Below are positions 10,008 through 41,000 of a DNA stretch of 64,000 nt, piece after piece. Source of the DNA: Brachynemurus nebulosus. Its lineage: Eukaryota > Arthropoda > Insecta > Neuroptera > Myrmeleontidae. A program made the translations under genes and the position numbers. The number at the start of each line of letters is the position of its first letter. Positions within the stretch are counted from its first letter, which is position 1. Under the pieces are notes generated by a model. It had not been told where the DNA came from, did no database searches, and worked only from the letters and a program-made list of their open reading frames with translations. The stretch is from the NCBI GenBank assembly GCA_035578155.1, contig JAPWDM010000013.1, positions 6,721,527-6,785,526 of the forward strand, given 5' to 3'.

Positions 10008-10080
10008 TGTTTCCGCCCGGGATCGAACCGGGGACCTTGTGCGTGTGAAGCACACGTGATAACCACTACACTACGGAAAC
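10008..10080 (-). tRNA. tRNA-Val (anticodon CAC)
   Basis: Read on the minus strand, the gene folds as a full cloverleaf. The acceptor pair is GTTTCCG/CGGAAAC and the D arm lies within GTGTAGTGGTTATCAC. The anticodon stem TGTGC/GCACA holds loop TTCACAC, giving CAC at positions 34-36, which reads GTG. The T arm is CCCGG-TTCGATC-CCGGG, and the discriminator is A at 10008. The D-arm and T-arm also supply the internal A and B boxes for Pol III. There is no intron, and CCA is not encoded, as expected in eukaryotes. No other tRNA was seen. Confidence 0.95.
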
Positions 10081-14026: not shown

Positions 14027-14080
14027 ATGGACAGAAGCTTCTATTATGTGTTTTTAATAGTTTTTGTGTCAGTCTTAAGT
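14027..14080 (+). CDS. Exon 1 of secreted six-Cys gene B (signal peptide)
   Basis: The ATG opens an 18-codon coding exon, MDRSFYYVFLIVFVSVLS, a short basic head followed by a hydrophobic core. It ends exactly at a consensus GTAAGT donor (14081-14086) in phase 0. The upstream AACAAATAAAAGAC may be TATA-like. No alternative signal exon was found between 15800 and the acceptor at 16123, so this is chosen as exon 1 although it is 2 kb away and on the far side of a gene on the other strand. Confidence 0.75.
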
Positions 14081-16855
14081 GTAAGTAGACTACTTTTCTT
14101 TATATTTTAGTAATTTTAATTCAATAATCATTGCGCAGATCGCAATATTGTAACAAAAATAAAGAAAGAAATTGATATTTAAGTAGATTTATTTTTATTG
14201 ATATCAGTTAAGTACAAGAAATACATTTTTTAGTAGAATATTTGAAAAAAAAAAAAAATTAACAAAAATCTAATTTGGGGCGTTTGTGCAATAAATGTCG
14301 GCAATATCAAATTGTTTCTCGTCCAGAATTTGATCGCGTAATTTTCCCAACTCCTGTTCGAGGCAATTATCATACTCGTCCATTTCGTCACGCAACAAAT
14401 CGACCGTATCTTGACAGTAACCTAAAATATTATTCGCCGAATAATCACGTTGAACTTTAAAATCCTCCGTGACTTTTGTGAAACAGAGGATGGCTCGATG
14501 TTCATACACTTCAACGGTATTGTCAGTTTTAAGTCGTAACGGTTGTAAACACTTTTCAATATCCGCCGGAAACGTGCTAATTGATATTTGTAAATCGATA
14601 ACTTCTTTAATCAATTTCATAAACACTGATTTCAAATTGGTGATATTATCCAAAAAACATACTAAAATCGGGCGAAATGTTAGGCGTGAAATGTCCGAGA
14701 CATTCTTACGTTTTGAACATCGCACGATTGTATCGATAAAAGTACGTAGCTCGTTTGTTTTTTGCCATCCAAATTGATCGATTTCACGAATTGAGTTATT
14801 TAGATCGCTCAATTCTTCGTCAATCAGTTTTAAATGTTTTTCGCTGAGTTCGTTAAAATTATCCAATACGTTCGATTTAAAAACGGGATAAATATTTGGT
14901 TCGTTTTGTGCTATCAGATCCGAAAGTGCTCTTAAATCGTTTCTCGCTTCAATGGTGCTGTCTGTGAGCACTTGCATTATTTTTGGATATTCGGGATTCG
15001 TGCGGGACGTTGGCAGCTGAAACAGACGAAAATAATAGTACACCTATACCTCAATTTGCGTCGTGGTTACGTTCCAAAGAAACACGACGCAAAGTGAATT
15101 ATGATTTTCTATCGCAAACCATGTAAAGATCGAAGATAGGTTTCAGGGTTACGAAAATACTACTTTTTAAAAAGAAAATTGAACAAAGTAAACATTTAAA
15201 AAACAATATAAAATTTTATTACATACATACAAAAAACAAAAAAAAAAAACAAATTCAATTAAACCAAAATAAAATAATCAATTAATTTATAAAAACAAAG
15301 TAAAAATTAGTCACTGTCTGATGAGTTCATAGTGGCTGTTGTCGTAAGTCGGCTTTCTTTCACAAAAAATTGGTCCAATGTTTGCGTTTATCCAAAAAAT
15401 TTCGAAAAAGAAATTAAAGACTCGAACCCAAAACAACGCAACTTCGAAAATCTAACAACGCACAGTGAAAATTAGTGCTAATTCAGCAGCGACGCAACTT
15501 CGAAAAAACGCAAATCTAAACGACGTAAAGCGAGGTATTGGTGTATATTATTACAAACCGAGAATCGTAAGTTTTTACTTTCTTTATACACTCTCAAAAT
15601 TGTTTCCTTGTTCAAATATTAAAAATACCTATCTCTTTGAATTAAAAAAACCTATTTTTTTGATTCAGAGAAATATTTCTTTGAGTATTAATAAAAAAGA
15701 AATCAAGGTTTCGAAAATAAATATTTTACTTACAGTTAAAGTAGCTCTTACACAGAAGGCTAATATAACAAAAATCAGCATATTTCCCATATTTGTTCAA
15801 AATCACTAACAATCAGAGACTGATGTGGTTCTATTACAAACTGTTTAAGTAATGAAGCTGAGTCATTAGTTACTTGTAATTAGATCAGGTATATACCTAT
15901 TCGTTTATTTTATAGGCGTTTTAATATCATAATTGAAATAATATGATAAATATTATATTGTAATATATTTTATAAACAATATTGTATTATATTACAAAGA
16001 ATATATTAACTAAATGAGTCGAACTGTTTAAATATAGCTTTGTTCCGTGAAATTGCGACAACTCACTAAACAAAAAAAATTTTTTTCATAAATATTCAAT
16101 AAATCCATTTGTTTCTTGTCTAGCTACCACATGAATCATTCAACGATGATTTCCCGAAAATTATGGAAGAATTTGTTAGCAAAGTAACTGCAGCCAATGA
16201 CGAAATTACCACAATCGCCGATGAAATAATACAAAATGAGCCAAATGTGCGTCCCATATTTGAATCACAGTTAAAATTGAGTTTTGAAGATTTGGTTGAC
16301 AATCGTCTCAAACTGATTCAAGAAGAAGCGGGCCGCCTACAAAATGCATTCACCGACCTCGAAAGTTATATAATCGAACAAGCCACAACATTTCGACTAT
16401 ATGTCGAGAATGTAACCGAATGTGCGGAGAGGAAAAATGTGGACGGTGTTTCGGATAAAACGTTTCGTCCAACAAATATGTGCTTTACGAGTTACGTGAC
16501 GGCAATCAAGAGTAATTACATGTTGTTATTGAATGATATTGCGAAGTTCCAAAAGTTGATCATGGCAGTGCCAAAAGATGTACGAAATTGTGTGGAGCCG
16601 TTGAAAATGAAACCGAGTGAAAAACAAGCCGTGAAATGTTTGACGAACATTTCGGAGAATTTTAAAGTTAAGCTAGACTATTATGCAAATAGTGTTATCG
16701 AATTAACGCAAGGGACAATCGGTCGGGTTAAAAATATGCAAAATGAATTCAGCGGATGTGTGGATGATGTAGTAAAAAAAATCCGTAGAAGTATTCTACA
16801 AGATAAGAATTTCGATATTAAAAAACTCACAGAATGTGAGACTGTAAGTGAATGA
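14027..16855 (+). CDS. Secreted six-cysteine protein, paralog B (host gene of nested paralog A)
   Basis: The coding parts are 14027-14080 and 16124-16855, joined in phase 0 across a 2,043-bp GTAAGT...TTGTCTAG intron. The product is 261 aa: an 18-residue signal peptide, then a mature part starting LPHESF. Cysteines at about 118, 138, 174, 190, 230 and 256 follow C-x19-C-x35-C-x15-C-x39-C-x25-C. Shared family motifs are PKIM, QNEPNVRP, KNVDGVSDKTFRP, CF and YYAN. Sequons occur at ENVT and TNIS. The sequence is otherwise predicted helical, with no transmembrane segment after the signal. It is six residues shorter between C3 and C4 than paralogs A and C. It is likely secreted; its function is unknown. 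The plan loosely recalls insect TsetseEP/DUF725 proteins, which are also secreted and cysteine-patterned, but I cannot confirm that. AATAAA follows 49 bases after the stop. Confidence 0.82.
14194..14199 (-). terminator. Poly(A) signal of gene A
   Basis: AATAAA on the minus strand, about 70 bases beyond the stop codon of paralog A. It lies within 120 bases of the gene B donor site on the opposite strand. Confidence 0.55.
14270..15790 (-). CDS. Secreted six-cysteine protein, paralog A, nested in intron of paralog B
   Basis: The coding parts are 15734-15790 and 14270-15016, joined in phase 0 across a 717-bp intron (GTAAGT donor, TGTTTCAG acceptor). The product is 267 aa: a 19-residue signal peptide, then mature LPTSRT. 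Cysteines at about 119, 139, 175, 197, 237 and 262 follow C-x19-C-x35-C-x21-C-x39-C-x24-C, with one extra Cys near 220. Motifs shared with B and C are PKIM, QNEPNIYPVFKS, CF, PADIEKC, YSANN and EKQFDI. The frame stays open into the intron as far as an ATG at 15043, but that short extension lacks a hydrophobic signal and ignores the acceptor, so it is rejected. The protein is probably extracellular, with no known activity. The whole gene lies in the intron of gene B on the opposite strand. Confidence 0.85.
15734..15790 (-). CDS. Exon 1 of gene A (signal peptide)
   Basis: Nineteen codons, MGNMLIFVILAFCVRATLT, end at a consensus GTAAGT donor in phase 0. A second phase-0 GTAAGA donor lies 18 bases earlier, after the codons for AFC, so alternative splicing could shorten the signal peptide. 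The stronger, later donor matches the exon lengths of the paralogs. Confidence 0.78.
15819..15823 (-). promoter_or_regulatory. Possible arthropod initiator (TCAGT) of gene A
   Basis: On the minus strand CACATCAGTCTC lies about 29 bases upstream of the gene A ATG. TCAGT is the arthropod initiator consensus. A weak TTAAAC lies about 28 bases further upstream. This would give a short 5' leader; it is a single weak match and only suggestive. Confidence 0.25.
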
Positions 16856-16903
16856 GATTAGATTAGGAAGAAATCTGTAAATAGAGTTATCGAAAAGTAA
16901 ATT

Positions 16904-16909
16904 AATAAA
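16904..16909 (+). terminator. Poly(A) signal of gene B
   Basis: AATAAA 49 bases past the gene B stop, followed by a T-rich stretch (TGTTTTCTT). Confidence 0.6.
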
Positions 16910-17086
16910 ATGTTTTCTTAACTTTTATATCCATTGTTCATAAAAAATCCCAAATAAGTATACATACTGTAGATAAATAAAAAGTAAAAAAAAATGTTTT
17001 TAAATCAAGTTTCTACTGGAAATTGGATTAAAAAGTATAAAATAATTATTGAATGAAGTTTAAGGCAATGTGCAACATAATTTATA

Positions 17087-18041
17087 GGGTAAGTACGGGA
17101 GAGATGCCGCGTCGGGAGTGATGCCGCAGTAGCCATAGTTCGTCGGTTGATTGACAGATAGCGCTATTGATGGATTATATGTTTAAAATAAGTTACTTAT
17201 TTAAGCTGTATATGGTAATATTTATGATTAGTCCATCAGTTTAGTAATTATCCAACTTTTTATTATTGAAAAGTACGTTTTTTAACATAATATTTTATCA
17301 AGCATTTAATTCATTAGAATTTAAGAATGTATACTTCATTGTTTTAATGAAAATGAGTTTTGTTATTAATTTAGGTATATTTTAAAAGTACTGTATAAAA
17401 TTTTAGGTTGAAATTCCGCACTATGCTTGCTATAGCAACATGCGGCATCTATCCCAACAAAAAGGAGAGACGCCGCATTTAAAGTTGGTATAGATGCCGC
17501 ATCATATTACATGTTAAAAACATAGACCTATATACCTTAATTATGCAATTTTTTTTTTTTGGACAGTAAATTATGCCACGTAAATATAAAAGATCCATTA
17601 ATGGATCAGGAAGAGCCCTCATATTAGTGAAGATAACGAAAATAATGATGACTGCCTGTGTATTGAATGTTTTGAAAGGTACTCAGAAACAAATAAAAAT
17701 TTGACTGGTTAAGATGCATTAAGTGCCAAAAATGGTTACATATGGCATGCATCATGTATGGAGATGTGTGTAAAATGCAAAATTTTTAATATGAACTATG
17801 CCGCGTCTCACCTTCTTTGATGCGGCATCTCTCCCATAGGTGTGGGACAGACGCCGCTTTGCAGGCTCTACAAAAATGTTAATTATGAATCCTTTATGAC
17901 TCAAAATTTACAATTATTTATAAATAATTGTAAAGAACAATGTTTAGATTTATTGTGTACTAAATTTCAAATCAATTAAATGCTTACTTTAAGAATTATC
18001 AAGTGTTTTCAAAATGTGCGGCATCTCTCCCGCATTCACCC
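17087..18041 (+). mobile_element. pogo-like element P, copy 2
   Basis: A 955-bp copy with ends GGGTAAGTACGGGAGAGATG and (inverted) GGGTGAATGCGGGAGAGATG, flanked by TA. It carries the same MPRKYKRSINGSG start at 17573 and PHD-like remnant (DCLCIECFERYSE, DWLRCIKCQKWLHMAC) with frame breaks. It also has about 100 bp near 17810-17960 that copy 1 lacks. It is almost identical to copy 3, including total length, so both are young. It lies about 230 bp past gene B. Confidence 0.85.
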
Positions 18042-18051
18042 TACACTCTCT

Positions 18052-18315
18052 AAACGATTTCTTGAATCGAAAATTAAAAATTTCTTTGAACAAAACAAAT
18101 ATTTCTTTAAATAAAAGAAAATATTTTTTTGATACAAAAAAAAAATTTCTAATTTTTTTTTCAGTAGTCAAAGAAATATTAAATAATATACCAAAAAATA
18201 CATATACCAAAATGTATTTTAAAAAAATAAATATACCAAAAAATTGTTTTTTTTTTTTTGGTTCAAAGAAAAAAAATTCAAAGAAATTTTTATTATTTGA
18301 ACAAAGAAATCGTTT
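18052..18315. repeat. AT-rich imperfect inverted repeat
   Basis: The left AAACGATTTCTTGAATCG and the right inverted AAACGATTTCTTTGTTCA face each other, both continuing into AAAATTTCTTTGAA. The centre is T- and A-runs. A MITE-like hairpin is likely; the long ORFs on both strands here are low-complexity artefacts. Confidence 0.45.
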
Positions 18316-18568
18316 TGATTTGTTTGTAGTCTTGAAGCATTTGAAAAATGCTTCAGACGTTTAACTAAGTTTGGTAACTAACTGACAGTGCTGTATGGAT
18401 ACTGCATAAAATGTAGCTAGATACAGATACAGATACTCAAAATAAATTTGTATCTAGATACAATGTATGTATCTAGATACTGATATACAGATACTTTTTT
18501 TTAGATACTTTTGAAAAATAACTATAGTATATTCCTTCGTTAATGCCGTTAAATATACAAAATAATTT

Positions 18569-18787
18569 CATTTTTAAATATTGAAAAATATTTAAAGTTC
18601 GATTACTTTGTCTATTTCACGAATTAAAAATTATTATATACCTAAATAAAAAAATAAATAAATAAATAAATATAAATATAAATAAATAAATAAATAAATA
18701 AATAAAAAAATTTAATTCGTGAAATAGACAAAGTAATCGAACTTTAAATATTTTTCAATATTTAAAATGGAGTTTCACAAAGTAGAT
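18569..18787. repeat. Hairpin with AATA microsatellite loop and PLE-like tail
   Basis: Arms of about 60 bp (TTAAATATTGAAAAATATTT, AAAGTTCGATTACTTTG, TCTATTTCACGAATTAAA) face their reverse complement across an (AATA)n tract at 18650-18710. The right arm continues into AAATGGAGTTTCACAAAGTAG. A very similar tail (ATATGGATTTTCACAAAGTAA) follows the large palindrome at 30.8 kb, so both may be Penelope-like pseudo-LTR debris. Confidence 0.6.
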
Positions 18788-19174
18788 CTCTCAACAGTGA
18801 GTTTCATTTTTATTATTCAAAATATGGAATATGAGAGGATAAAAAAACGCTTAATATTTAATTATACTTAAAAAAAAAATTATTCAATTTATTTGGTAAC
18901 ATTAATTTTACACATAAGAATCACACATATATTAAAAATTTCATTGACTGTATACTGTAGACGTAATAGGCTAACAATACTATAGGTGATAGTATAGCCT
19001 AATAGTATAATTTATAGTATAGGCGTATATTATAGACGATATTGACTAAGAAGAATCCATGAAATGGTTGCCACCGTCATAGAGCACCTTCTTAATTTAC
19101 GCAAAATTATAAAAAGGAAACCAGATGAAAAATAAATAAATAAACTAGCTTAAACCGTAAGTTTCTCTAATGTA

Positions 19175-19450
19175 TTATGCCTTCAACCAACTGTTATTTT
19201 TCAAAAACGATAAAGTTTCCAACATATTCTCTGATAGGGAATTTCTTCTCGCGGTAATAAATTGTCCAGCTGTATTAAATTGTCGTTCAACTAGAGCACT
19301 TGACGGTAAAATTGTATTATATTTTAAAAAATGAATAAACTTTTAGAAATTGGGACAATGTAGATAGAGTAGATTTTTCTTGTAAAAATCTAAGAGCTTC
19401 AACCTCTGTTGAATTAGAGTAAGTTTGTTTTAAATTATGTGTACAATCAT
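19175..19450 (-). pseudogene. hAT transposase C-terminal (dimerisation) remnant
   Basis: The minus strand reads LPSSALVERQFNTAGQFI, TARRNSLSENMLETLSFL, KNNSWLKA and stops. This is the conserved C-terminal dimerisation region of hAT transposases (canonical form LPSSAPVERLFS...). Just upstream, in another frame, STEVEALRFLQEKSTLSTLS is plausible transposase sequence. A one-base shift in the TTTTTTAAAATATAAT run separates the two. Only the end of the enzyme survives, so it is inactive. It lies in the hAT element at 18386-21033, whose upstream part was then split by a pogo-like insertion. Confidence 0.82.
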
Positions 19451-19509
19451 TTTAAAGAAATGGCCAACTGACCAATGAAGAATCTAGATACTTTATTCAC
19501 ATGCACATA

Positions 19510-20464
19510 GGGTGAATGCGGGAGAGATGCCGCACATTTTGAAAACACTTGATAATTCTTAAAGTAAGCATTTAATTGATTTGAAATTTGGTACACAATA
19601 AATCTAAACATTGTTCTTTACAATTATTTATAAATAATTGTAAATTTTGAGTCATAAAGGATTCATAATTAACATTTTTGTAGAGCCTGCAAAGCGGCGT
19701 CTCTCCCACACCTATGGGAGAGATGCCGCATCAAAGAAGGTGAGACGCGGCATAGTTCATATTAAAAATTTTGCATTTTACACACATCTCCATACATGAT
19801 GCATGCCATTTGTAACCATTTTTGGCACTTAATGCATCTTAACCAGTCAAATTTTTATTTGTTTCTGAGTACCTTTCAAAACATTCAATACACAGGCAGT
19901 CATCATTATTTTCGTTATCTTCACTAATATGAGGGCTCTTCCTGATCCATTAATGGATCTTTTATATTTACGTGGCATAATTTACAGTCCAAAAAAAAAA
20001 AATTGCATAATTAAGGTATATAGGTCTATGTTTTTAACATGTAATATGATGCGGCATCTATACCAACTTTAAATGCGGTGTCTCTCCTTTTTGTTGGGAT
20101 AGATGCCGCATGTTGCTATAGCAAGCATAGTGCGGAATTTCAACCTAAAATTTTATACAGTACTTTTAAAATATACCTAAATTAATAACAAAACTCATTT
20201 TCATTAAAACAATGAAGTATACATTCTTAAATTCTAATGAATTAAATGGCTGATAAAATATTATGTTAAAAAACGTACTTTTCAATAATAAAAAGTTGGA
20301 TAATTACTAAACTGATGGACTAATCATAAATATTACCATATACAGCTTAAATAAGTAACTTATTTTAAACATATAATCCATCAATAGCTCTATCTGTCAA
20401 TCAACCGACGAACTATGGCTACTGCGGCATCACTCCCGACGCGGCATCTCTCCCGTACTTACCC
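19510..20464 (-). mobile_element. pogo-like element P, copy 3, nested in hAT
   Basis: The reverse complement of copy 2, also 955 bp. It runs from GGGTGAATGCGGGAGAGATG at 19510 to CCCGTACTTACCC at 20464, with TA on both sides. Only scattered single-base differences from copy 2 were noticed. It interrupts the hAT element, so it arrived later. Copies 2 and 3 form an inverted pair 1.5 kb apart. Confidence 0.87.
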
Positions 20465-21273
20465 TATTAGCCACTACGGAATGTCATTACCACAACATAA
20501 CGAAAATGTTAAGTCTATTCTCGTACTATAAAAAATTATAAAACATCTAATGCACAATAAAAATAAAAATTAGGAAGTCGTTCGCGTACATTTTTTATCT
20601 TTTCTGATTATATTCAAATTTTAATTATACCTATAGTTGATGGTGTATTAATATAGGAATTTTAAGTGACGTAATACAATTATAAGAAGTCATGAACAGA
20701 CCCATTTATCCTAATGCTTTTACTTATAGATACAATTCACCTATGCAAATTCATACTTACGTAAACATATTTTGAAATTTAATAGTTTAAATTTGTTAAT
20801 CAAACTCATAATTCTCCATAAATAACCATAAATTTATATTAAAAAATTGCTAAGTAAGGTTATGAAATGTTTCTGTATCTAAAGTTTCTAAAAAAGATAC
20901 AAGATACACATCAAATGTATCTAGATACTAAATACAGATACTTAAAAATAATTGTATCTAGATAAAGATACAAGATACGTTTGTATCTAGATACTGATTT
21001 TAGATACTTGTATCTAGATACTAGACAGCACTGCTAACTGAGAAGTTAAGTAGCTGTTTACTTCTGAGACGGAAGTAAATCATAATAATGCCTCAAGCTT
21101 TTATAAATTATGTAGCACATTGCCTCAGAATTCTCTTAAGAACTATTTTATACTTTCTAGTGCATTTCTATCATAAATAGTAAAAGTTTGATTTCAAAAC
21201 AATTTTTTACTTTGAAAGGGTATGATGGCAAGTATATAATTTTTAAATTATTATAAATCTTTTCCACAGAGGG

Positions 21274-21297
21274 CTGAAGACGACAAAAAAGTCGAAA
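21274..21297 (+). other. Hammerhead-like CUGANGA...GAAA motif
   Basis: CTGAAGA, a short GAC/GTC hairpin with an A6 loop, then GAAAC. This has the layout of the hammerhead ribozyme core, whose seventh core position is variable. An extra C lies before stem II, and I could not find convincing stems I and III, so it may be a decayed or fortuitous copy. Hairpin repeat H lies about 180 bp downstream. Confidence 0.3.
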
Positions 21298-21475
21298 CTG
21301 GTAGCCTTTGGAAAAAGACACATTTTGTCTTATTTGATGACCATCACTCCTAAATACCGTTAAAAAATTTTTACTTTATTTTATACCTTTTAATCGGAAT
21401 ATTATTTATCTTAATTGAATTATTTAGTTGTAACTTTATTATTCCCATAGCTGGATACTAATGTTTGTTATTTCT

Positions 21476-21640
21476 AATATTAATAGATTTGAGCGTTACT
21501 TTATGGTATTCCATATTTGTAAATAATAAACAAATATTTTACTTCGCAAAAATACCACTTTTATTTTGAAACAATACTGTCACAGTTTCAAAATAAAAGT
21601 GGTATTTTTGCGAAGTAAAATATTTGTTTATTATTTGTTA
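21476..21640. repeat. Hairpin repeat H, copy 2
   Basis: The leader TTAATAGATTTGAGCGTTAC is identical to copy 1 at 10.7 kb. It is followed by inverted arms (CAAATATTTTACTTCGCAAA, ATACCACTTTTATTTTGAAAC) around a short loop that differs from copy 1. Within each copy the two arms match each other better than they match the other copy (for example TTTGCAAAA against TTCGCAAAAA), which suggests arm-to-arm gene conversion. Confidence 0.72.
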
Positions 21641-22060
21641 CTTCTATTCACTTAGAAGACTTCGAAAATTAGACACTAGATAATGTTGTTTTCTGCGACG
21701 GTTAAGGTATTTTATAGTAAATACATAAATAATATTCTATCAATTTCATAAATTATGTCAGTTGTAAATTTTTTTTTGGGACTGAAGAACAATAAATTGT
21801 TCGGAGGACTTATAATTTTGTACAGAAATTTCCTTATACAGAGTTCTTAAATTGCTTATTTTTAAATATCTTTCGGATCCATCATCAGATCTGCTCATCG
21901 ATTCCATCACATGATATTGTCATGTAAACTATACGTATGCAAAATTTCAGTTCGATCCTTTAATAGGAAATGAATTGAAATAAAAGTACAAATTTACGAA
22001 TACAGCAAGTTAAATAAATGCTTATAATTACAAAAAAAGGAAAAAAGGTTGCCTTGTAAT

Positions 22061-22066
22061 TTTATT
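22061..22066 (-). terminator. Poly(A) signal of gene C
   Basis: AATAAA on the minus strand 32 bases beyond the gene C stop; TTTTATTTC just before it may be a further weak element. Confidence 0.55.
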
Positions 22067-22097
22067 TTTTTGAAATAAAAGCACACAAAAGTCTTTT

Positions 22098-22957
22098 TTA
22101 GGCACTACAGCCAACATCCGTTATATCAAAATTTTTCGTATTCAAAATTTGTACCCGAAGTTTCTCCAATTCCGTATCCAGGCACACATCAAATTTATCA
22201 ATTTTATCTCGAATCATTTGCGTTGTTTTTTGACCAAACGTCACAATATTATTAGCGTAAAAATTCTGTTTACTTCGAAAATCGTCGCCCACTTTGGAAA
22301 AACATAGAATAACCATATGTTCAATGGTGGCTATCGTATGAGCCGTTTTTTGCCATAACGCTTCCGAACATTTTTGTACATCCGCCGGAAAGGTGGTAAT
22401 TAATATTTGAAGATCCATCACTTCTTTCAACAGATGCAAAAAGTTACTGCGTAAATCGTAGATGTGATCCAAAAAACAGATAAATGTCGGTTGAAATGTT
22501 TCTAGAGTTACGCCGTCAATATTTTTATATTTTGCGCATGCGGTTATATTGTCGACAAAATTGTGGAAATCGCTGGCTTTCCTTTGACCAAAATCGATTA
22601 CATCATCGAATGCGCCGATTAAATCGTTCAAGTGTTTCTCAATTTGTTCTAGATATTTTTCGCGCAGCTCATCGAAACTTGATTTGATGGTTGATTTAAA
22701 AATTGGATGGATATGTGGTTCATTTTGAGCGATTTGATTTGAACAATCTTCCAATTCTTTATTAACACTTCCAATAGTTTCGAGTAACTGTTCGACGATT
22801 TTTCGGTATTGGAATCCATCTTGATGCGGAGTGGGTAACTGAAACGGAAAAAATTCGTTAATGTAAAAGTTATATTAAGACAATTTGAAAAAATTCATAC
22901 GCTTAAAATAGACAAGAAGCTGAACACTAAAAGAATCCAAAATAAATTATTTGCCAT
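22098..22957 (-). CDS. Secreted six-cysteine protein, paralog C
   Basis: The coding parts are 22901-22957 and 22098-22838, joined in phase 0 across a 62-bp intron (GTATGA donor, CGTTTCAG acceptor). The product is 265 aa with a 19-residue signal peptide and mature part LPTPHQDGFQYRKIV. Cysteines at about 120, 140, 176, 198, 238 and 263 follow C-x19-C-x35-C-x21-C-x39-C-x24-C, as in gene A, plus an early Cys near 51. Shared motifs are QNEPHIHPIFKS, KNIDGV, PADVQKC, IEHMVILCF and NNIV. It carries the NIT sequon just before C1, as gene B carries NVT. It looks closest to paralog A. The frame has no ATG near its start, so without exon 1 it would be called too short. The short intron makes this the most compact and most certain gene model here. 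Likely secreted; function unknown. Confidence 0.87.
22901..22957 (-). CDS. Exon 1 of gene C (signal peptide)
   Basis: Nineteen codons, MANNLFWILLVFSFLSILS, end at a GTATGA donor in phase 0. The intron to the TTTCAG acceptor is only 62 bp, so the pairing of the two exons is unambiguous. Confidence 0.85.
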
Positions 22958-23443: not shown

Positions 23444-24412
23444 GGGTGTTGCTAGTCGTCCGATAATTGGACGAATAAAACAAAACTTAGTCGTCCGATA
23501 ATCGGACGAATAAAAAAAAACTTAGTCGTCCGACTATCGGATGAATAAAACAACCTAGTCGTTCGACTATCGGATGAATAAAATAAATTAATCATCCGAT
23601 AAATCTAATTATTCTAGAAATGGTATACTTACTATTTTATAATTAATAATTACATATTTGATTATAAAATATTACAGAAGGAATTAAATTTATAACATTT
23701 TAAATTTATTCGTGAAATTTCAAATTTTAAACCAACCTCATCACCTAGTTTTTATATCAAAAATCGAAATATATTGTTAAAACTAACTAAACGAACCTAA
23801 CCAAAACCAACCTCACCACCTAGTTTTTATATCAAAAATCGAAGTATATTGTCAAAACTAACTAAACTAGCCTAACCAAAACCAACCTCACCACCTAGAA
23901 ATAGTATGCTTACTAGGCAGTATCGATAAATTCTTGAAAAATATAACATTATTAAAAGTCAATACTAACCCGAAAGAATTATAATAAGCACACACACCAC
24001 TGAGTTTAATGAATTAACTTGTACACAAAGAGTGATAAACTAAAATCCTCGTAACTTTTAATTAATTATTTAATTCAAAACTATGAAGTCTATGTCTTTG
24101 ATAAAAATAATGAATCAATTGGAGTCGATTAAATCCATATTCACAATGAATTTAATTCGTCTTGGATTATAAGGAATTATTAACACTATTAATTTATTTC
24201 ATAACTAATAATTACATATTTGATTATAAAATATTACAGAAGGAATTATTATAACATTTTAAATTTATTTGTGAAATTTCGAATTTTTAACCAACCTCAC
24301 AAAATAATAAACATACCATTTCTAGAAGAATTAGATTTATCGGACGATTAATTTATTTTATTCATCCGATAGTCGGACGACTAAGTTTTTTTTTTTCGTC
24401 AGATAAATACCC
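23444..24412. mobile_element. Element with GTCGTCCGA repeat ends
   Basis: The left end holds four head-to-tail units of about 37 bp (CTTAGTCGTCCGATAATCGG, ACGAATAAAA). The right end carries the same units inverted (CGGACGACTAAGTTTT) and ends AAATACCC against GGGTGTT on the left. Between them are 90-bp direct repeats (AACCAACCTCACCACCTAGT, TTTTATATCAAAAATCGAAG; about 23738-23900) and a shared AATAATTACATATTTGATTA segment. It is non-coding and presumably non-autonomous; no TSD was settled. Confidence 0.65.
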
Positions 24413-29990: not shown

Positions 29991-30801
29991 TAAATATGGT
30001 GTCGTTGCTTTGTCACTTTTCACAGCAAAATAACAGAAAAACACGAGTCGACTTTCGGCTTTTACACCATCATCAGGTGAAAAACTTAACTAAAAATTGC
30101 TCTTTTTGGCGAAAACTATTTATAATATAGATCGGAGCAAATAATGCATTGGTGGGGGATGCTAGAGACAGAGACAGAGACAGATACAATCACAGTATAC
30201 AATAAAATTAAAAATTTTTTGTATTGTTTGCAAAGGTAGTTTACAGCGAAATTTATTTTTAAAAACTGGTTAGGTCCAATATTATTAAATTGACCGGAGC
30301 ACACTGGGGAAAACCAGACACGTGAAAGCAGCGGCGAACGACAATTACCAGAAACAAAGGAAATCATACAGACATCTGTCTGGTGATATGCACCCCTCGT
30401 GCATATCAACAGACAGATGTCTGTATGATTTCCTTTGTTTCTGGTAATTGTCGTTCGCCGCTGCTTTCACGTGTCTGGTTTTCCCCAGTGTGCTCCGGTC
30501 AATTTAATAATATTGGACCTAACCAGTTTTTAAAAATAAATTTCGCTGTAAACTACCTTTGCAAACAATACAAAAAATTTTTAATTTTATTGTATACTGT
30601 GATTGTATCTGTCTCTGTCTCTGTCTCTAGCATCCCCCACCAATGCATTATTTGCTCCGATCTATATTATAAATAGTTTTCGCCAAAAAGAGCAATTTTT
30701 AGTTAAGTTTTTCACCTGATGATGGTGTAAAAGCCGAAAGTCGACTCGTGTTTTTCTGTTATTTTGCTGTGAAAAGTGACAAAGCAACGACACCATATTT
30801 A
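29991..30801. repeat. Near-perfect 811-bp palindrome
   Basis: Two 403-bp arms meet at a 5-bp spacer (CCCTC, 30394-30398). The only arm difference I noticed is one base near the centre (GGTGATATGCAC against GTTGATATGCAC). Identical 97-codon ORFs therefore appear on both strands and are not genes. The arms end in ATGGTGTCGTTGC and contain a CTGATGA...GAAA motif. The sequence ATAATTTTCATA occurs just left of the palindrome and again at about 30840-30851, consistent with a 12-bp target duplication around the palindrome plus a tail (ATATGGATTTTCACAAAGT). This fits a Penelope-like or other TPRT-type insertion with inverted copies. Confidence 0.8.
30716..30739 (+). other. Hammerhead-like core in palindrome arm
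   Basis: CTGATGA, a GGT/GCC mini-stem, then GAAA. The mirror copy on the minus strand is at 30053-30076. The core matches CUGANGA...GAAA, and Penelope-like elements are known to carry minimal hammerhead ribozymes in their pseudo-LTRs. One extra U precedes stem II and the outer stems are not obvious, so activity is doubtful. Confidence 0.35.
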
Positions 30802-38016: not shown

Positions 38017-41000
38017 CTAATCAAAATCATCCGGTACATCTCTCAATCCATAATACTCAATCATATCATCCATATCCGAAACTTCTGGCACCACATATTT
38101 ATTACTACAGATTTTCGGCGCATATTTATCAATTTTATCGGACACACATTCGTGTATAATATCGGGCATACCTTCCAGCATATTATATTTTCCAATTAAA
38201 TCGTCCAAAATTGTCGAAGCATTCACCACCACGTCGTAGGCACCTTTGAAACAGTAGAACACCTTTTGCGCTTTATCGACAAATTTGAATATTCGCGATT
38301 TCATTTTTTTATATTTTTGTAGCGCTTTGGAACTGAAGTCGGACATTTTAGTGCGCATTTTTTTGAAATTGACTTTCATAAATGTGTAGATAATTTCGGC
38401 TTTTTTGCCAACATAGTGGCCCACAATTTTACTGTAACGCACCACATAGGTCCGAGCAGTTGATAGGCCATGTTTTGCTTTTTGATACACTCGTTTACTC
38501 TGATCCTTGACGGCGACGCCAAATTCACGCAAGCCACGTTTAGTGCGTGGCGGTGAGCGTAAACTTTTCAAATTTTCTTTACACTGTTTGTAAAAAGCGT
38601 ACGTATGGTTGGCGAATTGTTTAAGTTTGACCAGCGTGTGTAACGTGGAGTTAAATTTGACGAGGGCCGTTTTAAACTTTTGCGCAGAACATTTCACCGC
38701 AGCCATATATATTTCTGGTGGTATTTCTCGCACGGTTGTGTTCCAACAATGCTGATATCTAGCATTCGAGTAGGCAAGAAATGCTTTGTGTGCCTCCTCT
38801 TTTAAGTGTCGTTCAATTGTTTCGGGTGTACCTTTCAGACTGTGACTCATCATTTGAAAGAATTCCGCGTCTTTGAATTCATTTAAGGCCTTTGTCAAAT
38901 TGCCACCAAACATCCGGTTCACGTCTTGAGCCATCGCCGTGTAGTTGGTTTTCTTTTTCTCTTTCGCTTCGGCGGCATTGTCAAGCTAAACAGAAAATGC
39001 AGTAAATAATTAAATTCAAACTTAACATTTTCCAAGTTTTTGGAGCAGCATATGCTTTTGGTTTTTGAATCTTTTAAAGGGGGCATGTAAACATTTGAAA
39101 AATATTTGAAGATTTTGTGTAGACTCAAATTTATTTATGTTTTGTCTGACAGGAAAACTGGTAAAAATATCTTTTTATGTAGCTGAATTCCAATTTAAAG
39201 GGAGGTTTACTTGAGAGTCGTTAAAAAATCGATTTTTTTTTTGCACAAATTGGTAGCTAATTATGTGTAGAATAAGTTCCCAAAGTGATTTTGCTGAAAG
39301 TAATTTAAGGGAAGGTTTATTTGAGATTTGATAAAAAAATCGATTTTTTTTTGCCGAAATTGATAGCAAATTATGTGTAGAATATGTTCCCAAAGTGATG
39401 TTACTGAAAATAATTTAAAAACAAGATTCTTGCACTTTAAGCGAATCCAGCTTTCTATAAAAAAAAATTCAAAAAACGTAGTTCACGCAAAAATGAGTAT
39501 TAAATATAAAATTTTGAAAATACATTTCTTTATATATATTTTATAATATCTCGGAACTACATTTTTGGAACTGGTGGACACGATAACTCAAAAACTATTC
39601 GATGAATCCTTTTTTTAAATTTTTTATTTTAAAAATAATTTAATTCTTCGACACCTCTACCTAAGTTAGATACACCGTCAATATTTTTTTTTTTTAAATT
39701 TACTTTAAAGAGCGAAAAATAAGACAAAAATCGTAATCAAAAGTTCAAACATCCGCCATTTTTTTTTCTTTCAGCAATTTATTGATATTATAGGTAGAAG
39801 TGCCGGTACTCTTCATATATTTTATAAATCTTTTTTGTTTTTGGATTGCGGTGCTTTATTACCGGCGCTAGGATGTCCACCAACAAGACATTTGATTTTC
39901 GGATCGTCACACTTCACTATCTGTAAAATGGACACTTTTTTATATTTTTCTTTGAAAAATTTTTTGTTTGTGTAGTTTAATACTTAATAAATATGTACAC
40001 AAAATTTGAAATTTATATTTACTTCCGTTCTTGAAAAAAAAAAATTCTAGAAAAATACATAATTTTGAAGGACTCTCGAGTAAACCTCCCCTTAACTAAA
40101 TTCTAATTTAAGGTAGTTGCTCTGAGATAGTCAGGTATAAAAGTATAACTCAGCAAAAAAAATTTCTTTTATCAAAAATAAATAATGTATTACTATTCTA
40201 CAGTTATTGTATTTGTATACCACTTGTTTTTTTGAATTTCCGCGTGCTTATGTTGTAGCAATTTAAAGTAATTGTTGAAAAAGAGTTGTAAAAACATTGT
40301 AAAATGATGTTTTTAAATTATATTTCAAAAACGGCGTGGTCAATAACTTTTATTTCTTATTAAATTTGGCTTGTAATTTTGTATTAAATAACATATTAAA
40401 TTTTTATCAAATTCGTTTGACACGTTTTCATTTTATTCAAAAAAAAAAAAATCGAGTTTTCCCATAAGAGCCCGGGTTAAAATAACAAAACTTTAAAATC
40501 GTTTTTCTCAAAATTGCGATGGTGAATTTTTTTGGGGGTAAGGGCTCGAATTATTGGTATTGGATTAAATAAATATCTAGAGAAGTTTCGTTAAATTCCT
40601 TTGAAAAAATCGTTTTATCGACCAACTACCTTAAAGTTCTTTTCAAAAATTACAGGAAATTTTTAAATAACATCCTCTTAGACTGACAAAGCATTGTTCA
40701 AATTTCACGGTTAAAAAATTTACCAAGACTTACAGTAGGGGTTCCCAAATCTTGCAAAATAAGGAAAGATGATATTGGTCGATCTCACATTCTAATTTGC
40801 AAGTTGAAAAGAGGACTAGAGCTTAACAGAATAATCACATATGGAAAATAAGTGTCAATTTCTCAACGAACTTGGTTTTATTTACAGGAAAAATCAAAAT
40901 CTGATACACAAATTACTGATATATACAATTTATGTAATAACGATATAAATTCCATACAAAATATAATATTTTCTAACGGAAAAATGTTTAACTATAAATA

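Follow-up and report, generated by a model that had tools for sequence, protein, structure and literature searches.

The question raised by this locus is what kind of proteins are encoded by three neighbouring genes, here called A, B and C, in a 64,000-nucleotide stretch of the genome of the neuropteran Brachynemurus nebulosus (C25:6721527-6785526, hereafter the window; genome of 960 Mb in 138 contigs). A preliminary description of these genes had proposed a secreted, fast-evolving and possibly undescribed six-cysteine family, with TsetseEP/DUF725 (PF05267, which we take to be one domain with InterPro IPR007931) as the only vaguely similar plan. Our analysis makes it rather probable that A, B and C arose by old duplications in a large family of secreted proteins with an all-helical, disulfide-clamped build, that this family is a distant and rapidly evolving offshoot of the TsetseEP/DUF725 superfamily, and that its members are secreted into the gut. 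The secreted family itself is real and large and matches no curated Pfam model; most likely it is an outlying part of a known superfamily and not categorically new.

The gene structures and the hydrophobic signal exons were established at the sequence level. Spliced from the window, each gene consists of a signal-peptide exon of 54-57 nt, a phase-0 intron located immediately 5' of the residues 'LP' and a single large exon, and the deduced proteins of A, B and C have 261, 267 and 265 amino acid residues (aa), respectively (Table 1). All three N-terminal exons are hydrophobic, as the secreted nature of TsetseEP/DUF725 proteins leads one to expect (judged by hydrophobicity and not by a dedicated signal-peptide predictor). 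The six shared cysteines, numbered C1 to C6 below, follow the pattern C-x19-C-x35-C-x15-C-x39-C-x25-C in A, with x21 and x24 in place of x15 and x25 in B and C. Two further cysteines occur in B (C13 in the signal peptide and C220 inside the x39 gap) and one in C (C51). The QNEP motif reads QNEPNVRPIF, QNEPNIYPVF and QNEPHIHPIF, and the PKIM-like motif PKIM, PKIM and RKIV, in A, B and C, respectively, while the CF motif is found at the second shared cysteine of each. The pattern, the three motifs and the exon layout had all been noted beforehand, and splicing confirmed them. Outside these anchors the proteins are highly dissimilar, B and C being 32 and 33% identical to A; nevertheless, a profile of the three aligned with 21 other members of the family described below far beyond chance (hhalign E-value 4.3e-32).

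Gene B is nested whole, on the opposite strand, in the 2,043-nt intron of gene A (window 14027-16855). It is taken to lie completely within this intron because the only plausible signal exon of A found by scanning is at 14027: the 6 kb preceding exon 2 contain no other hydrophobic ATG exon with a donor retaining at least four of six consensus bases. Exon 1 of gene C is the least certain of the three first exons, since its donor (GTATGA) is weak and an upstream candidate at 23887-23949 (-) scored alike.

The three genes belong to a family of at least 53 distinct loci in the genome, a lower bound obtained by merging genome searches with protein C (23 matches) and with a diverged member, L017 (51 matches). 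Forty-seven of these loci are clustered in one 0.81-Mb array at 19.46-20.27 Mb of contig C1; four are on contig C25 (A, B, C and one beyond the window, at a distance of approximately 17 kb from A), and the remaining ones are at C1:134.997 Mb and on contig C52. Sequences were examined outside the window at 23 of 50 places, corresponding to 22 loci, and the signal exon followed by a phase-0 intron recurs in 17 of them under a strict scan; the same scan found no signal exon in L012, L024, L030, L036 and L037. In a tree of 25 rows, A forms a supported clade with the pair B and C (98/96), which is joined weakly by L011, the fourth member on contig C25 (67/80); five long branches are of uncertain placement.

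Divergence within the family is rapid. In the 18 closest paralog pairs (Nei-Gojobori method, dS < 0.6, none including A, B or C), the ratio of nonsynonymous to synonymous substitution rates (dN/dS) is 0.37-1.04, which is fast evolution and not proof of positive selection. Among A, B and C, synonymous sites are saturated (dS of 2.7-3.1 or undefined); they are therefore old duplicates whose own dN/dS is uninformative. Thus, the earlier expectation of a secreted and fast-diverging family is borne out by the signal exons and the closest pairs, the dN/dS check proposed with it being informative for those pairs and not for the window genes. The 'invariant spacing' claimed for the family holds in A, B and C, but the gap between C3 and C4 differs across the wider family, and six cysteines are not its commonest state: an extra cysteine pair, lacking in A, B and C, is present in 20 of 29 aligned rows (25 family rows and the four bridge proteins introduced below).

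Two convergent inverted pairs were recorded, one with identical frames at C1:19752282 (+) and 19755169 (-) and one with identical scores at C95:21413679 (+) and 21418048 (-). The intervals adjoining the array contain a Ty3-type gag frame, recognized by Pfam, with a second long, putatively env-like frame (L033, C1:19420001-19430000), and a frame encoding a transposase domain of ISXO2-like (IS1595) type (L031, C1:20270001-20280000).

No curated Pfam family accounts for these proteins. Of the matches listed for L030, L036, L037 and L017 and for the window genes A, B and C, none exceeded a curated cut-off; for the 22 aligned members, none did so in the table of member 1, the best E-value among the commonest 25 of 79 families being 4.1e-5. 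Identity with any curated Pfam family was consequently rejected, no match over cut-off being listed in the tables for A, B, C, the members scanned, the bridge proteins or the consensus sequences. No relative emerged from the PDB: a sequence search with protein C gave nothing, and the best match of the family profile (E-value 0.0024) was a designed helical protein. Searches of a protein database with the family and bridge alignments (A1, A2 and A3) gave nothing at E ≤ 1; this is no evidence of rarity, because the genome itself holds dozens of relatives and the database probably lacks such animal proteins. A search of viral contigs with the L028 protein found none.

The connection to TsetseEP/DUF725 is indirect and passes through four bridge proteins of the same genome, L028, L047, L048 and L049. 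Used as a query in the genome, L028 finds L047, L048 and L049 with E-values of 7.8e-9, 1.6e-6 and 0.005, respectively. The first step, from the family to these proteins, is firm as a profile comparison: the alignment of 22 family members (A2) matched that of the four bridge proteins (A3) with a probability of 97%, an E-value of 1.2e-10 and a score of 75.9 (hhalign), or 72.6 when L047 was left out. Control scores did not exceed 19.8 in 160 runs with shuffled columns, in which the cysteine columns were either shuffled with the rest or left in place (40 runs of each kind for each of two profiles), and were 23.0-23.8 with reversed profiles. The window genes take part in this similarity, A, B and C together matching A3 with an E-value of 5.2e-6 over 213 columns and C alone with 5.5e-6. 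With all 25 rows against single bridge proteins, the E-values were 2.2e-9 for L049, 8.2e-7 for L048, 5e-4 for L028 and 0.0011 for L047. Moreover, the order of landmarks in L049 (ECAK, C, VPEDCNKC, C, GGQC, C, YGFDITKC) is that of the family. As informal negative controls we used an open frame of the window at 38017-38985 (-) and two proteins of L044, a locus close to the bridge gene L028 on contig C74; they showed no detectable relation (hhalign scores of 15.2-26.1). The two L044 proteins, of 304 and 308 aa, are in tandem, with frames from 688 and 6678, and contain cysteines; no Pfam match of the first of them exceeds its cut-off.

The second step, from L028 to DUF725, is suggestive and not proven. 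DUF725 is the best Pfam match of the whole L028 protein (19.6 bits, E-value 9.2e-4). Its cysteine-bearing half, residues 111-279, a boundary chosen by us that leaves off the N-terminal helices, reached 22.1 bits (E-value 1.6e-4) and passed the curated cut-off of 22 by 0.1 bit. The reversed L028 sequence and two shuffles gave no DUF725 match and nothing below an E-value of 0.088. The consensus of the bridge proteins matched positions 22-118 of the 121 of the DUF725 profile with E-values of 0.0062 when shortened and 0.014, second in the list, when whole.

The fold of the family is inferred to be all-helical. The AlphaFold2 model of mature C, built from 22 sequences, consists of helices at 8-39, 44-104, 112-123, 127-163, 169-235 and 242-245 (pLDDT 89, pTM 0.80). 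The model of L049, built from its own four-sequence alignment, has helices at 27-73, 75-138, 149-154, 156-197, 202-265 and 270-274, with short ones at 12-15 and 278-291 (pLDDT 72, pTM 0.64). The helix order and the cysteine positions are alike in both models, whose input alignments had no common sequence. In both, C1 precedes the end of the second long helix by three residues and C3 to C6 are at matching places; C2 lies in a short helix in the C model versus the start of the next helix in the L049 model. Fold comparison gave nothing clear over the helical-bundle background, although an unlisted fold is no proof of absence.

The proposed structural check of cysteine pairing thus yielded a helical model of C, whereas the pairing scheme itself comes from paired losses in the 29 rows. 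C1 and C6 are kept in every row, L025 alone lacks both C2 and C5, and L047 alone lacks both C3 and C4. The additional cysteines (alignment columns 102 and 250) are both present in 20 rows, both absent in 8 (A, B, C, L011, L030, L028, L047 and L048) and split in one, L049, which has the second only (Fisher p 2e-6, relatedness ignored). L030 has a cysteine near column 250, and its grouping is alignment-dependent. Since cysteines are lost in pairs, with C1-C6 following by elimination, these patterns suggest nested disulfides C1-C6, C2-C5 and C3-C4 and an optional fourth.

The TsetseEP/DUF725 proteins of the published reports considered here are mostly associated with the gut. The tsetse EP protein of Glossina is a secreted midgut protein of 35.7 kDa including the signal peptide; it appears oligomeric, has weak agglutination activity, and its knockdown led to more trypanosome establishment by a mechanism left open (PMC2832768). 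It was also found in the tsetse peritrophic matrix (PMC3998921), and a DUF725 protein in the peritrophic-matrix proteome of a mosquito (PMC5865745). In Anopheles, an IPR007931 protein was the most disparately expressed gene of the proventriculus and anterior midgut (PMC9113746), and a Drosophila mucin carries DUF725 (PMC2515642). In the leaf beetle Colaphellus bowringi, the midgut protein Cb-TsetseEP bears its label at 20.7% identity (PMC13308108), a similarly remote assignment, likened to ours by description and not by sequence.

The family described here resembles this group in being secreted, in the near-cut-off match of L028 and in the mostly gut or peritrophic-matrix location of the members in those reports. 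It differs in that A, B and C list no match to the model, in its at least 53 loci mostly within one array, and in the extra cysteine pair of most members examined. Compared by description and not by sequence, Glu-Pro repeats make up more than 40% of tsetse EP in the published account, whereas A, B and C have no such repeat. A comparable expansion of TsetseEP/DUF725 was not found described in titles and abstract openings of a literature largely without subscription journals.

A number of results weigh against an affiliation with TsetseEP/DUF725. A search of the genome with DUF725 hit a single place, L028, at 19.7 bits, under the cut-off of 22, and among the matches listed for the four bridge proteins (25 of 36 families for L047) only those of L028 include it. 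The window genes A, B and C do not reach the 22-bit cut-off, and neither their matches listed up to E 10 nor those listed for the whole family consensus include DUF725; with the C-terminal half of that consensus it was seventh of 11 (E-value 0.048). Consensus sequences of helical proteins produce much noise, that of the family matching the unrelated DUF7217 at 2.5e-5 and the reversed bridge consensus matching apolipophorin-III at 5.6e-5, and for this reason the match of the bridge consensus to DUF725 proves little. In the first step, A alone and B alone were not significant against A3 (E-values of 0.014 and 0.038), and L028 alone scored 26.8 against A2, no better than the unrelated L044 pair (26.1), so that L049, L048 and the joint profile carry this step. 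Foldseek gave no PDB match at E ≤ 0.001, and the disulfide scheme is based on few losses, each amounting to one or a few events. Finally, the tsetse EP report describes a protein without a defined domain and found no orthologue of it in Anopheles, Aedes, Apis or Drosophila (PMC2832768), which, by 2010 methods, is at odds with a wide superfamily.

The preliminary TsetseEP/DUF725 lead therefore survives in an indirect form, with a firm first step, a suggestive second one and no direct match of A, B or C. If L028 matched DUF725 by helical coincidence, the bridge proteins being true relatives of A, B and C, the family would be separate from DUF725; the shortfall of whole L028, the silence of the other bridge proteins and of the window genes, and the helical noise fit such an outcome, yet it is unlikely, given that DUF725 is the top match of L028 over a cysteine-bearing stretch, that this match passes the cut-off narrowly once the N-terminal helices are omitted, and that it disappears when L028 is reversed or shuffled. 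About equally unlikely is a salivary, venom or other feeding-effector family, whose proteins would enter food or host and whose array would have diversified against the host and not against gut microbes. The signal exons, the large tandem array, the dN/dS of the closest pairs and the lack of listed curated matches fit it equally well, but the published relatives are mostly gut or peritrophic-matrix proteins, so far as those sources go, and the sequence holds no pointer to saliva.

Far less probable is a helical carrier of lipids or other ligands, apolipophorin-III-like in function. Weak matches to apolipophorin-III (PF07464), unlisted for A, B and C, were obtained with the family consensus (16.4 bits, E-value 0.01), L047 (19.5 bits, 0.0012) and L048 (0.0028), and the family profile matched PDB 1eq1 at 0.11; all Pfam matches are far below the cut-off of 36.3 bits and the reversed control did better, so this candidate was rejected as an identity. 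To our knowledge, apolipophorin III has no such cysteine clamp. The least probable reading is a pore-forming or membrane-bending helical protein of HlyE/AhlC or BAR type: none of the resemblances exceeds the noise level that the tool gives for helical bundles, and BAR proteins are cytosolic, whereas the proteins here have signal exons and cysteines.

If the family does belong to the TsetseEP/DUF725 superfamily, its proteins would, by analogy with published relatives, be secreted into the midgut lumen or peritrophic matrix. The disulfides may hold a protease-resistant helical scaffold whose surface could bind microbes, parasites or ligands from the diet, and many surface variants of one scaffold would have been produced by rapid divergence after tandem duplication. 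Rather improbable is the further reading that the array forms a lineage-specific defence repertoire of the gut, comprising at least 53 diversified, disulfide-clamped helical recognition proteins of a family unrecognized by Pfam, in which variable surfaces on a conserved scaffold would be directed against microbes or parasites. Were the relationship real, this large family, with its confident helical model and testable disulfide scheme, would offer a structural hypothesis for the tsetse EP domain; in one lineage at least, the domain would have given rise to a large array of diverse members, and the Pfam DUF725 model would appear to cover only part of the superfamily.

Table 1. Exons of genes A, B and C and other features of the window (positions in the window).
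Feature	Position	Strand	Description
Gene A exon 1	14027..14080	+	signal peptide MDRSFYYVFLIVFVSVLS; donor GTAAGT
Gene A exon 2	16124..16855	+	open frame; mature protein 243 aa and stop; six shared cysteines
Gene B exon 1	15734..15790	-	signal peptide MGNMLIFVILAFCVRATLT
Gene B exon 2	14270..15016	-	mature protein 248 aa and stop; six shared cysteines and one extra
Gene C exon 1	22901..22957	-	signal peptide MANNLFWILLVFSFLSILS; weak donor GTATGA
Gene C exon 2	22098..22838	-	mature protein 246 aa and stop; six shared cysteines and one extra
tRNA-Val (cac)	10008..10080	-	sole Rfam hit of the window at gathering scores
Inverted arm	17084..18043		960 nt
Inverted arm	19508..20467		960 nt
Tandem array	23453..23602		35-nt units with near-palindromic core
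Open frame	30116..30466	-	116 aa
Open frame	30326..30676	+	116 aa
Open frame	38017..38985	-	322 aa with cysteines; no Pfam match

The inverted arms between genes A and C are 99% complementary and 1464 nt apart, and resemble the very long terminal inverted repeats of a DNA transposon. The two 116-aa frames are near-identical and lie on opposite strands, and therefore mark a near-perfect inverted repeat.

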